Below the pieces are notes generated by a model. That model was not told where the DNA came from, made no database searches, and saw only the letters and a program-made list of their open reading frames with translations. Below, piece after piece: positions 57,414 to 64,000 of a stretch of DNA of 64,000 bases. The stretch spans positions 1,426,001 through 1,490,000 of the forward strand of contig CP051152.1 in the NCBI GenBank assembly GCA_003970805.2, written 5' to 3'. The position numbers were made by a program, and so were the translations under genes. Source of the DNA: Undibacterium piscinae (GTDB lineage Bacteria > Pseudomonadota > Gammaproteobacteria > Burkholderiales > Burkholderiaceae_D). Each line of letters starts with the position of its first letter. Within the stretch, counting starts at the first letter, position 1.

Positions 57414-58850
57414 GTGATGCGCCCCTCCCCCCCTCTTAGCAAATCTATCATCTCGCGCGACTCGGGTGGTTCGCTAGTCGAGCAAATCGTACGTTCGGTG
57501 GCTAGCCGTATTGACGACAAACTCTTGCGTACTGGTGCCCGTATGCCCTCGATACGCCAGTTCGCCGACGAGCAGCAAGTCTCGCGCTTCACCGTGGTCG
57601 AGGCTTACGACAGACTAGTGGCCAATGGTTATCTGGAATCGCGCCGCGGTTCGGGGTTTTTCGTGCGCGAACGCGCCTCTATGCTGGCCAATAATCATGC
57701 GGTAGCATTGGCTAATCCGGTCGCGCAACAGTTCGACGTGGTGTGGTTGGTGCGCAATATGTTCCGCCAGTTGCCGCCACAAAAAATGCCGGGCTCCGGC
57801 GTCTTACCGCACGATTGGCTAGACGGCGAATTAGTCGCCAATGGCTTGCGCGCGATCAGCCGTGTCAATTCCAGCCAACTGCTGCACTACGGCACACCGC
57901 AAGGCTTTATGCCGCTACGCCAGCAACTGCAACTCAAACTGGCCGAGCTAGAGATCGCTGCCGCGCCCGAGCAAATCGTCACCACCAGCGGTGTCACCCA
58001 GGCGCTCGATTTGGTCGCGCGCGAGTTCACCCAACCCGGTGACACCATCTTTGTCGATGACCCGGCCTGGTTTTTAATGTTCGGCTCTTTCTCCATACTC
58101 GGTGCCAAGGTAATCGGCATCCCGCGCCTGCACGATGGCCCGGATGTCGCCAAGTTAGCCGAACTAGCGGCCCTGCACAAACCCAAGCTCTACATCATCA
58201 ACTCGGTGATGCATAACCCAACTTCGACCTCACTGTCGGCGGCCAAGGCATTTCAGGTTTTAAAAACCGCCGAACAGCATGATTTTATGATCGTCGAAGA
58301 CGACATCTATTGCGATATGCACCCCGGCACCGCAGTGCAACCAGCCACTCGCTTGGCGGCACTCGATCAACTCAATCGTGTCATCTATCTGGGCGGATTT
58401 TCCAAAACCCTGGCGGCCAACTTGCGGGTAGGCTTCATCGCCACCTCGCCGCAACTGGCGATCAGGCTATCAGACCGCAAGATGCTCTCGACCCTAACCA
58501 CCACCGAGATCGGCGAACGCGTGGTGTACAAAATCCTCTCGGAAGGCCATTACCGCAAACATGTAGACCGTATCCGCGTCAAGCTCGACAGCGTGCGCGA
58601 CGATATCACCAAGCGGGTAGAAAACCTGGGCATGAAAGTCGAATACCGCACCCCGGCCGGGATGTTTTTGTGGGTAGAAACCGGCTGCGACAGCATCACC
58701 CTGGCCGAAAAAGCGCTGGAACAAGGCATACTGCTAGCCCCCGGCAGCCTGTTTTCACCGAATCAATTGCCGTCCAGCCGCATGCGTATCAACATCGCCG
58801 CCATGTCCGACCCCGGCGTCTGGGATTTTTTGGAAAAAGAGATCCGCTAA
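57414..58850 (+). CDS. MocR-family regulator (GntR helix-turn-helix plus aminotransferase domain)
   Basis: A 478-residue transcription factor. Residues about 10-85 form a GntR winged helix (LVEQIVRSVASRIDDKLLRT, MPSIRQFADEQQVSRFTVVE). The remainder is a fold-type I aminotransferase-like domain that binds PLP (LYIINSVMHNPTSTSLSAAK; PLP lysine in VIYLGGFSKTLAANLRVGFI). Such regulators sense PLP and an amino acid and usually control the divergent neighbour, here the dehydratase-EamA-RidA-aminotransferase group. The start at 57414 reads MRPSPPLSKSIISRD. Confidence 0.92.
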   Translation: MMRPSPPLSKSIISRDSGGSLVEQIVRSVASRIDDKLLRTGARMPSIRQFADEQQVSRFTVVEAYDRLVANGYLESRRGSGFFVRERASMLANNHAVALANPVAQQFDVVWLVRNMFRQLPPQKMPGSGVLPHDWLDGELVANGLRAISRVNSSQLLHYGTPQGFMPLRQQLQLKLAELEIAAAPEQIVTTSGVTQALDLVAREFTQPGDTIFVDDPAWFLMFGSFSILGAKVIGIPRLHDGPDVAKLAELAALHKPKLYIINSVMHNPTSTSLSAAKAFQVLKTAEQHDFMIVEDDIYCDMHPGTAVQPATRLAALDQLNRVIYLGGFSKTLAANLRVGFIATSPQLAIRLSDRKMLSTLTTTEIGERVVYKILSEGHYRKHVDRIRVKLDSVRDDITKRVENLGMKVEYRTPAGMFLWVETGCDSITLAEKALEQGILLAPGSLFSPNQLPSSRMRINIAAMSDPGVWDFLEKEIR

Positions 58851-59802
58851 TCGACCGCCCGGTTTAAAGCCGACTCTAAATCAGGATAAGCGAAGCGAAA
58901 TCCTTGCGCTTGCAAACGGCTTGCTATCACACGCTGGCCTTCCAGCAACAGATCAGCTTGTTCGCCCAGTGCCAGACGCATAGGCCATGCAGGCGTGGGC
59001 ATGAAGCAAGGCCGGCCCAGAATGCGGGCAGCGGTCTGGCTAAATTGCTTCTGTGTGACGCACTCTGGCGCGCAAAAGTTATATGCGCCATCATCCATGC
59101 TAGCTGCATCGGCCTGCTGATCACGCATGCAAAGATGGGCGATCCCCTGAGCACATCATCCACGTGTATCCATGATTGCCATTGCGTACCACGACCGAGC
59201 GCGCCACCCAGCCCCAACTTAACCGGCAGCAGCATCATAGGCAAAGCACCCTGTTGCCCCAGCACGACGCCAAAGCGCATGCACTTCACGTGTACCCCAT
59301 ATTGGCTGGCAGTCTGTGCTGCGGCCTCCCACTCCTGACACAGCTGCGACATAAAAATCGCCTGCGGTGGGCTTTCTTCGGTCAGTTCGCGCTGATCGCC
59401 TGGCTCTTGGATGCCGTAGTAGCCGATTGCCGAGGCCGACAACAGCAGCCTTGGCTTTTGTTTGGCACGGGCTATCCAAGCGACAATGCTGTCGGTAAGT
59501 GCAACACGGCTGCGGCGCAATTCTGCCTTGCGCTTTTCGGTCCAACGCCAGCCCAGAATACGCGCACCAGCCAGATTGATGATGACATCAAGCGGATAAC
59601 TGTCAGGCAGCTCACTCATGGCGTTGATACAGTTCACTTTGGCATCAAAGGTACGTGCCGCTTGCCTGGGATTGCGGGTAAGGACAGTGACACGCTGTCC
59701 GTCTGCCAATAAGGCCTGCACCAGTTGCCGACCGATGAAGCCAGTTGCACCGGTAACGAGTACGTTTCCTGGCTGCTGGTTAAAATGAAGAGCGCTCTGC
59801 AT
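58847..59802 (-). CDS. TIGR01777-family NAD-dependent epimerase-like protein, frameshifted
   Basis: An SDR protein of the YfcH/SDR39U1 group. The N-terminal part has VLVTGATGFIGRQLVQALLA, VIINLAGARILGWRWTEKRK, LLSASAIGYYG and SWIHVDDVLRG. Then the frame is lost: with one more G in the G4 run (C4 at 59144-59147) it continues IAHLCMRDQQADAASMDDGA, YNFCAPECVTQKQFSQTAAR and PDLESALNRAVD, giving about 318 residues. Members are linked in eukaryotes and bacteria to cell division or unknown metabolism; the substrate is not known. The break is probably a sequencing error. Confidence 0.85.
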
Positions 59803-61577: not shown

Positions 61578-63590
61578 TTACTTAATGACTACTTGCATAC
61601 TGGTACCAAATTTGCGTCCAAGAGAATCTACAACCGAGAGTGATACAGTATAAGTACCGGCTTTGGTGTAGGTATGGACAACTAAAGCGGTAGTCGCTGC
61701 CGCCGTTCCATCACCAAAATTCCACGAATACGATTTGATCGTCGCACCTGGCACTGTAGCGCCTCTGGCATCAAACGTCACGGCAACCGATCTGGCATTT
61801 GCAACTGGTGGAGGCGTAACTGGTTTTGGTGGCGTAACGGTAGCTGGCGGAGGAGTTACGGTTGAAGGCGGAGGCGTTACCGGTGTAGGGGTAGTAGTGC
61901 CATTTGGAAGTGCCGTTGTGCCACTGATACTGTATTGACCAAGGCTACCATAATTAGTGTAACCAGTTGTCAATGCGCTACCTTTACCTGCGCCCGTTAC
62001 GCTAAGGAAGTAAGTACCTTGCGCTGGTATTGCAAAACTAATTGTGCTACCCAATGTCGCATCAGTGTTCGCCGATGCCAGTACCTTACCCTTACTGTCT
62101 ATCAATTGCAATGCCACGTCCAGATTGCCACCCAAGGCAGCACCTTTGACAGTAAAACTGGCATTACCGGCACCCGCAACAAAACTAAACATGTCGATAT
62201 CGCCAGGTATTCCGATCACACCGTTAGCGCTGAGGTTATTGTAACCATTAGCCGATTTGCTAAGCATGGCATCAGCAGTGGCAATCGTATTACCATGATC
62301 ATCGGCAAATGGTTTCAAGCCTTGCTTGAGCATCACTGCGTAAGCATCTTCCTTGTTATTCGCGTTGGCGTATTCGCCTTTTGACCACTGGGTCAGATTC
62401 TTGTAATAGCCAACACCCATGATAGGTGCCCAGCCAGTTTCGCCGTCACCCTGCCCCTGGTAGTAGGCGACAGATGTAGTGCCCTGATGCGACAGACCCA
62501 AGGTATGGCCCAGCTCATGCGAAACGCACTCTGCGATAGGCTTCTCGCTATTGGCGAGGTTATTTGGGAAGCAGAAAGTACTTGCAGTGCCGGTAGAGAA
62601 AGCACCGAAGGAATTTAAATAAGCATAACCACCGGCAGTATGTGTTCTTGGAGTAATCAGGACAGTCATCCCAACTTTACCGGCCGGAGCGACTGGCTTC
62701 TCAGTAGTGACGTCAACATCAAAAGCAGCATAATCCTCAACCACGCGCTGCCATACTTTTTGGATCAAAATGCGTTCAGCATCACTAAAAGTTGATGGTG
62801 TAGCATCCAGGCTAAACGCCGGATTGGCAGAATCGCCGGTGAAATTGAGGTAAAGAATTCGGGTTGAACTTGGTTTGGTGTGCAGTTTAAAGGTCTGATC
62901 TAAAGGGAAAGGGCTAGTTGCCGCTGTAGTTGCCGCTGTAGTGCTTGTGGTAGCCTGTTGCATAGTGCCGCCTGCCGCTGCGCCTACTGGCAGGTTGGCA
63001 TCAAGACCATCGTCGATGTGCAGCATGCGCCCCTTGCGGTCAAGGTGCACGGTGCTATCGGTAACCAGTAAATTACGGAAACCATCACTACTCATGCCAT
63101 ACCACTTGGCAACGGCATCAAGATTATCACCCAATAAGGCGATTGCTTTTTCTCCGGAAGAGAATTCCTTCAAATTGATGCGTGAAAATGGTGAGCCTTC
63201 AGTCGATCCTTCCGCATTATTCGGGACAAAATCAGCTGGCAATTCCATCTTTGCCATCATTTCCTGACTCATTGCCGCAGGCTTAGACACTGCGTTTGCC
63301 GGATTTTCAGGTAAAAGCTGGGTATTTATTTTAGCGGCATTAAAACTAGTCACACCTTGAGGTATAACTTGTACAGACGATGGCGTTTGTGTCAATGCCA
63401 AGGGACTCGCAATCGCAGACTCAACTATCGGTGAGGACTGTTTCGCCGTACCCGCTACATTGTTACTTGCCTGCGAATCGACTTGCTCAGTTAACGCAAT
63501 GCCAGCGTACACACTAAAGCCGCCAACTAGCATCACTGCTATAGCAATGGCAGACTTAGCGACCGGTTTTTTTGAAGTTTGCTTATTCAT
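61578..63590 (-). CDS. Secreted metzincin metalloprotease with PPC and PKD domains
   Basis: A 670-residue extracellular protease. Order: signal or anchor helix (AIAIAVMLVGGFSVYAGIAL), propeptide of about 200 residues, catalytic domain with the extended zinc motif HELGHTLGLSH, a bacterial pre-peptidase C-terminal (PPC) domain (DIDMFSFVAGAGNASFTVKG through YFLSVTGAG), a Thr/Pro linker (TPVTPPPSTVTPPPATVTPP), and a C-terminal PKD domain (YSWNFGDGTAAATT). PPC and PKD domains usually aid export, maturation or binding to insoluble polymers. The ATG at 63590 (MNKQTSKKPVAKS) has AGGAAA upstream. A c-di-GMP riboswitch precedes it. Confidence 0.9.
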   Translation of the reverse strand: MNKQTSKKPVAKSAIAIAVMLVGGFSVYAGIALTEQVDSQASNNVAGTAKQSSPIVESAIASPLALTQTPSSVQVIPQGVTSFNAAKINTQLLPENPANAVSKPAAMSQEMMAKMELPADFVPNNAEGSTEGSPFSRINLKEFSSGEKAIALLGDNLDAVAKWYGMSSDGFRNLLVTDSTVHLDRKGRMLHIDDGLDANLPVGAAAGGTMQQATTSTTAATTAATSPFPLDQTFKLHTKPSSTRILYLNFTGDSANPAFSLDATPSTFSDAERILIQKVWQRVVEDYAAFDVDVTTEKPVAPAGKVGMTVLITPRTHTAGGYAYLNSFGAFSTGTASTFCFPNNLANSEKPIAECVSHELGHTLGLSHQGTTSVAYYQGQGDGETGWAPIMGVGYYKNLTQWSKGEYANANNKEDAYAVMLKQGLKPFADDHGNTIATADAMLSKSANGYNNLSANGVIGIPGDIDMFSFVAGAGNASFTVKGAALGGNLDVALQLIDSKGKVLASANTDATLGSTISFAIPAQGTYFLSVTGAGKGSALTTGYTNYGSLGQYSISGTTALPNGTTTPTPVTPPPSTVTPPPATVTPPKPVTPPPVANARSVAVTFDARGATVPGATIKSYSWNFGDGTAAATTALVVHTYTKAGTYTVSLSVVDSLGRKFGTSMQVVIK

Positions 63591-63596
63591 TTGATT

Positions 63597-63627
63597 TCCT
63601 TTGTTATGGTGGTGTTGCAACAAAGGA
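63597..63627 (-). promoter_or_regulatory. Hairpin that can hide the protease ribosome binding site
   Basis: On the minus-strand RNA, UCCUUUGUU (63627 to 63619) is exactly complementary to AACAAAGGA (63605 to 63597), with a 13-base loop. The right arm overlaps the AGGAAA ribosome binding site of the start at 63590. This looks like the expression platform of the riboswitch upstream. Whether it closes with or without ligand cannot be told by eye. Confidence 0.7.
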
Positions 63628-63693
63628 CATACGCGGTCGGTAAAACGTTGTAGTAAGATCTGATTACTGGATGCAGTAAGGAAATCGAGTCAC

Positions 63694-63784
63694 GTCTAAC
63701 CGGTAACCCCGCTACCATTATCTTTTCAGACATTAGGCCGGAGGCTTTGCGTCCCTGCTTTTCAGCAAGTTTGCCCTGAACACA
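63694..63784 (-). promoter_or_regulatory. Cyclic di-GMP-I (GEMM) riboswitch
   Basis: The minus-strand sequence reads CAGGGCAAAC, a GAAA-type capped stem, GGGACGCAAAGCCUCCGGCC with UAA, then GGUAGCGGGGUUACCG. These blocks match the GEMM-I aptamer of the Vc2 type almost word for word, including the tetraloop and the tetraloop-receptor-like segment. The aptamer lies about 105 bases upstream of the protease start. It indicates that intracellular c-di-GMP controls this secreted protease. Several diguanylate-type signalling genes are elsewhere in the window. Confidence 0.93.
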
Positions 63785-64000
63785 GTATTGGTCGGGAAAT
63801 ACCTAAAGTCAAGCGAAGAAATCGCTTATTCGCAAAAAATATTCACCATAAGTGCCTGATAAATAAGGGAAAATGCTTTTCAAACATGGAAGTTTTCAAT
63901 TAAACATATATAAGCCATAACAATTTAAAAATGACTGAGATAAAGCGACAGGTATTTTTTAATACACAGTCATACAGTTCTGAATTTTTTTATCGTTTTT

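Follow-up and report, generated by a model that had tools for sequence, protein, structure and literature searches.

A c-di-GMP-I aptamer and a Shine-Dalgarno hairpin before a metzincin protease gene of Undibacterium piscinae: a proposed translational OFF switch

The closest described counterpart of the leader considered here is Cdi-1-12 of Clostridioides difficile, likened by arrangement rather than by sequence comparison: a class I c-di-GMP riboswitch that also lies before the gene of a secreted zinc metalloprotease, ZmpI (PPEP-1), which c-di-GMP represses. ZmpI cleaves surface proteins produced at high c-di-GMP, and the functional class I switches of that bacterium are nearly all OFF switches that act by transcription termination (PMC6366702 and PMC6200980, in their accessible text). 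The accessible text of PMC4744006 conflicts with those two papers, giving class II riboswitches for both ZmpI and its target. Within the part of the open-access literature that was available, ZmpI is the only protease found under a c-di-GMP riboswitch, and for C. difficile the case of ZmpI has already prompted the proposal that c-di-GMP targets extracellular proteolysis. Vibrio cholerae has two class I switches which, by the available accounts, work in opposite directions, so the direction of a further switch cannot be borrowed from the known ones.

The leader described here lies in a stretch of 64,000 nucleotides from Undibacterium piscinae (the window). The best named database hit comes from U. 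parvum, at 77% identity. A preliminary description had noticed its main parts and left its direction open; the comparative anatomy of related leaders favours OFF, a judgement made from sequence. I propose that a kinetic, translational c-di-GMP OFF switch controls the protease, which I consider the best reading and a fairly probable one.

Anatomy of the leader

On the minus strand the order is promoter, aptamer, 65-nt P4 hairpin, GCGTATGTCC, Shine-Dalgarno (SD) hairpin and protease gene. The leader belongs to a set of 18, called class A, made up of the 17 leaders of the metzincin cluster and one more of the same type (L012). Its features are:

63784..63812, minus strand: sigma-70-like promoter, TTGACT (63812-63807), 17 nt, AATACT (63789-63784)
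63699..63785, minus strand: c-di-GMP-I (GEMM-I) aptamer, RF01051, by covariance model (84.3 bits, E 3.7e-15)
63773..63776, minus strand: aptamer strand GGGC, which would pair with GTCC (RNAalifold consensus and enforced folds)
63749..63752, minus strand: aptamer strand ACGC, which would pair with GCGT (RNAalifold consensus and enforced folds)
63638..63702, minus strand: P4 hairpin, a name coined here (7.7 expected end pairs against 1.4 in shuffles)
63625..63634, minus strand: GCGTATGTCC, candidate anti-aptamer element that shares bases with the anti-SD arm; motif kept in 17/18 of class A
63618..63627, minus strand: TCCTTTGTTG, anti-SD arm of the SD hairpin (hairpin search and fold comparison)
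63597..63606, minus strand: TAACAAAGGA, SD arm; the SD, AAAGGA, ends 6 nt 5' of ATG
61578..63590, minus strand: 670-aa metzincin protease gene (HELGHTLGLSH 358-368, PPC 466-533, PKD 596-661)

The GEMM-I aptamer, first claimed from the letters alone, was found again at 63699-63785 by an Infernal-type search, full length and at 84.3 bits against a curated cut-off of 35; searched with RF01051, the genome gives no other match. GGGC, GACGCAAAG and GGTTACC of the aptamer fall at model positions that match the ligand-contact bases G20, A47 and C92. This numbering is that of Vc2, which I presume to carry over to the present aptamer, and the base at position 20 is G. The three contact bases are so named in the accessible text of PMC4744006. 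That the aptamer binds its ligand I infer.

The promoter-like match upstream of the aptamer fits at 9 of 12 positions. Such a match is no proof by itself, since shuffled versions of the region contain 4.0 promoter-like sites on average and the region itself 2; TTGAC stands at the same place in most class A leaders displayed in the alignment. The -10-like box, AATACT, ends 7 nt 5' of the aptamer's GGGC, so a long 5' strand of the closing stem P1 may go untranscribed.

At the other end of the leader, the 9-bp hairpin that had been claimed over the ribosome binding site is present and covers the SD of the metzincin gene. All 18 class A leaders have an SD hairpin, of 7-11 bp, whose outermost pair is T-A in 8, C-G in 8 and T-G in L029, and is unpaired in L158. 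The start codon under the hairpin opens a short ORF, not the protease directly, in L012 and L158. Between aptamer and SD hairpin stands P4, which in this leader starts directly after the aptamer core and stops 3 nt 5' of GCGT. The corresponding segment, from aptamer end to GCGY, folds end to end in 18/18 class A leaders, with a shuffle fraction of 0.05 or less in 17 and 0.06 in L029. Its length ranges from 22 to 81 nt and its sequences are mostly dissimilar. The distance from stem end to GCGY is three bases in 16 leaders and four in 2. The leaders share descent, and the shuffle expectations given here and below overstate significance to that extent. Farther from the SD, GATTTCCTT (63686-63678) is a possible anti-SD by its complementarity to AAGGAAATC, but it was rejected as the switch: it lies inside P4 and is absent from the nearest relative, L010.

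A scan for intrinsic terminators found no terminator-like site between aptamer and ATG. That, together with the length and structure of the leader, is what one would look for if the signal were read chiefly as mRNA level, a closed SD barring ribosomes and Rho or RNases attacking the untranslated leader. I think such control through transcript survival improbable, because nothing in the sequence singles out Rho or RNase control, and pairing at the SD suffices without it.

The gene itself answers to its first description as a HELGHTLGLSH protease with PPC and PKD domains: it encodes a metzincin of 670 aa, and H358, E359, H362, G365 and H368 of the signature and M391 of the Met-turn are invariant in 49 sequences. 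Of 392 family genomes, 22 hold the protease at E <= 1e-60, and in 16 of these the riboswitch lies directly upstream (the gene being broken in one, G031). Aptamer, SD-covering hairpin and protease are real and kept together. In three others (G347, G125, G039) the upstream DNA seems to be cut by the contig end, as judged from locus lengths. The remaining three show no riboswitch upstream: G242, whose gene has an inner stop, and G389 and G204, whose proteins are 42-47% identical. Metzincin homologues of two Paucibacter carry the aptamer; more distant homologues (L037-L039) have none, and L040 holds no upstream DNA.

Several observations may be set down beside these. In two relatives (L012/L189 and L013/L190) a well-kept leader remains where the metzincin is lost or broken, and in one of these the next long gene, about 500 nt on, is an S8 protease. 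Two genomes have protease genes in tandem with a GEMM-I leader before each of them, two metzincins at L112 (G007) and two subtilases at L144 (G327). Paired matches to RF02278 (Betaproteobacteria toxic small RNA) lie near the protease homologue at L033:2750-3125 (Janthinobacterium fluminis) and L232:449-1301. Within the window, at 58847-59802 on the minus strand, two ORFs in different frames (58927-59802 and 58847-59128) look, by eye, like one epimerase-like gene broken by an apparent frameshift.

Upstream of the riboswitch, on the same strand and just outside the window, is a GGDEF gene (L001:1923-3056, minus, about 64121-65254 in window numbering; Pfam E 1.7e-36) that ends 338 nt before the aptamer, beside a gene that I take to resemble cysS. 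Four close relatives, counting this genome, have the GGDEF gene at this place, all with the unusual signature GTEEF; two of them have another ORF between it and the riboswitch-protease unit. Its product, if active, may be a local source of c-di-GMP.

Competition for the anti-SD strand

Between aptamer and SD lies the motif GCGTnnGYCC, whose two halves are complementary to the ACGC and GGGC strands of the aptamer, strands that I take to be part of the ligand pocket. The GYCC half overlaps the anti-SD. In the form GCGTN1-4GYCC the motif occurs in 17/18 class A leaders (0.08 expected), L158 having GCGC instead, in 11/33 leaders of sedolisin genes (0.80 expected) and in 1/55 other leaders (1.24 expected). 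A looser form tells less, being found in 18/18 class A (1.33 expected), 14/33 sedolisin (6.12) and 22/55 other leaders (13.66). Both Paucibacter homologues, which stand outside the family, lack the motif (0/2) despite their aptamers. In the consensus that RNAalifold gives, unprompted, for the class A alignment, GCGT is joined to the aptamer's ACGC and GYCC to its GGGC. The motif's partners are invariant aptamer bases, so covariation cannot support this helix.

One might suppose that the aptamer is not wired to the SD hairpin, and that this hairpin serves as an RNA thermometer or damps expression constitutively; the hairpin is stable by itself and A-U rich. It would then be hard to see why P4 and the motif, both between aptamer and hairpin, are kept across genera of the family, and I give this idea very little credence.

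When the transcript is cut at the end of the anti-SD arm, enforcing the motif-aptamer pairing gives a fold no more than 0.7 kcal/mol away from the whole ensemble in 12/18 class A leaders and no more than 2.3 in 18/18; L158 lacks one of the eight motif-aptamer pairs. In full transcripts the SD hairpin beats the motif-aptamer fold in 17/18, the exception being L112a. By these predictions the motif would rather pair with the aptamer as long as the SD has yet to be transcribed, and the SD hairpin would prevail from then on.

A scan over growing transcripts of class A points the same way. Pairing of the eight pocket bases with the leader peaks on average at 0.79 against 0.48 in shuffles, and 11/18 leaders exceed all 5 of their shuffles where 3 are expected by chance; the other 7 fail to do so, and L114 and L158 stay under their own shuffle mean. 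In sedolisin leaders the excess is weaker (0.71 against 0.57, with 11/33 above all five shuffles), and at other loci it is small (0.57 against 0.52; 2/11, these 11 being the scorable ones among 30 submitted out of 44). A search for free duplexes between the aptamer and the anti-SD region gave a shuffle fraction of 0.05 or less in only 2/18 class A leaders.

The subtilase leaders show no excess at the pocket bases. What they show is some excess on the aptamer's 3' strand (0.66 against 0.51, 3/10 above all five shuffles, with 10 of 11 leaders scored), and 8/11 contain a stretch complementary to that strand with a score of at least 7.5; two of the 11, L156 and L157, are near-identical. Seven of the eight stretches lie at the SD hairpin, 34-47 nt 5' of the start codon, and are also complementary to the SD region. 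The motif of class A and the 3'-strand complement of the subtilase leaders would each set the anti-SD in competition with the aptamer, which makes for an OFF switch.

Equilibrium folding was uninformative as a test of direction: without ligand the SD hairpin dominates in 15/18 full class A leaders. Mutual exclusion of the SD helix and the alternative structure is suggested by the folds of cut transcripts and of the alignment and by the growing-transcript scan, not by the equilibrium folds, which by themselves do not demonstrate switching. With the SD closed at equilibrium without ligand, an OFF switch is workable only under a kinetic scheme, and the closed SD is just the resting state that an ON switch at translation needs. 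In such a switch the ligand would open the SD hairpin and the protease would be made at high c-di-GMP, for example for matrix remodelling or surface feeding; expression through V. cholerae Vc1 does fall when c-di-GMP is lowered (PMC4744006, accessible text). I nevertheless regard the ON direction as rather unlikely. No strand is seen that ligand binding would free for opening the SD hairpin; the strands able to pair with the aptamer are the motif and, for the majority of subtilase leaders, the anti-SD region, and ligand would release these towards closing the SD.

The steps of the kinetic OFF switch would then be as follows. Without ligand, once polymerase has passed the anti-SD arm, GCGTATGTCC would pair with the ACGC and GGGC strands of the aptamer, during which P2, P3 and P4 could remain folded. 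With the anti-SD so occupied, the SD would emerge free and protease would be made. When c-di-GMP is bound, ACGC and GGGC would be held in the ligand pocket, leaving the anti-SD free to close on the SD, and no protease would be made. I infer from the comparison of leaders that the motif pairs with the aptamer in the cell, that control is kinetic and that its direction is OFF; c-di-GMP would in this manner alter translation of the protease. Settled cells, with high c-di-GMP, would spare matrix and surface proteins, and cells with low c-di-GMP would make the protease for dispersal or feeding.

Other proteases behind the aptamer

At E <= 0.001, RF01051 is matched in 33/43 genomes of the genus and 153/392 sampled genomes of the family. 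The matches examined number 106. They comprise every one of the 44 listed for the genus and 62 among those listed for the rest of the family, the latter drawn from the high scorers, where one large genus, g6, was deliberately thinned. Targets were labelled from the longest early downstream ORF and BLAST clustering, ten proteins being scanned with Pfam and the rest assigned by clustering; at 3 of the 106 the contig ends before any downstream ORF. Proteases follow 63 of the 106, and 35 of the 44 in the genus. The largest cluster, of 33, is sedolisin (member L126 matches sedolisin in PDB, E 5.8e-10), followed by the metzincins with 17, one gene (L013) being broken, and the subtilases with 11, of which L160 and L113 are Peptidase_S8. 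There are two singletons, an S8 gene some 500 nt from its aptamer (L012) and a Peptidase_M11 gene, L124, whose aptamer has a low score of 45.2 bits.

The genus thus has four protease families behind GEMM-I, two metallo- and two serine (20 sedolisin, 12 metzincin, 2 S8 and 1 M11). Metzincin and M11 belong to one MEROPS clan, sedolisin (S53) and subtilase (S8) to another. Eight of the remaining nine genus targets form one cluster, whose one scanned member is a response regulator, and the ninth presumably resembles FliD. Among the non-protease targets are also a transglycosylase (SLT) cluster with 10 members and one of DUF4402 proteins with 4. Of 28 loci from other families of the order, taken as top scorers and with the aptamer possibly misplaced by the script in a few, 4 (L194, L211, L203, L213) match the S8 or sedolisin sets. 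Ten loci from those families (L195, L198, L200, L205-L207, L209, L210, L217, L218) precede what seems, from N-termini compared by eye, to be one recurrent family of large proteins.

The sedolisin, subtilase and M11 leaders have the same aptamer family as the metzincin leader. A local hairpin at the SD was found by script in 14/33 sedolisin leaders (5-7 bp, not counting hairpins placed inside genes) and not in the others, in the M11 leader L124 (7 bp) and in 8/11 subtilase leaders (5-12 bp), L166 and L179 being added by the complementarity search. The subtilase leaders differ from the metzincin class in having another aptamer strand as possible partner and, at position 20, A or C in 7/11. A replaces G as the first base of GGGC in 7/8 leaders of the response-regulator cluster (L116-L122) and in 5/11 subtilase leaders (L144 in its second aptamer, and L156, L157, L166 and L175). 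A G20A aptamer variant has been modelled with 3',3'-cGAMP (PMC6274999, accessible text), and aptamers with A at this apparent position are possible cGAMP or mixed-ligand switches.

More generally, and tentatively, the c-di-GMP-I aptamer may head a protease regulon in Burkholderiales: at least four exported protease families would stand behind a leader that joins aptamer, P4, anti-aptamer strand and SD hairpin and acts on translation as the RNA folds during its synthesis, so that one signal would silence extracellular proteolysis as a class.

Comparison with known c-di-GMP switches

Since the aptamer recurs ahead of several protease families, c-di-GMP would seem to act on extracellular proteolysis in general. 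The literature searched, so far as its text was accessible, yielded no description of Burkholderiales proteases preceded by a c-di-GMP switch that has an SD hairpin. How class I c-di-GMP riboswitches act in Gram-negative bacteria is poorly known, and 18 natural variants of one leader make a translational mechanism testable with few mutants.

The leader departs from the termination-type class to which ZmpI's switch belongs, by the accessible accounts, in showing an SD hairpin and, by the scan for such sites, no terminator. Vc1 and Vc2 of V. cholerae have in common with it a GEMM-I aptamer, a Gram-negative host and no control by transcription termination. For Vc1 the authors of PMC4744006 (2016, accessible text) see no anti-SD and call the mechanism unclear, and they give that of Vc2 as unknown, whereas the leader described here has both an SD hairpin and a candidate for the strand that switches it.
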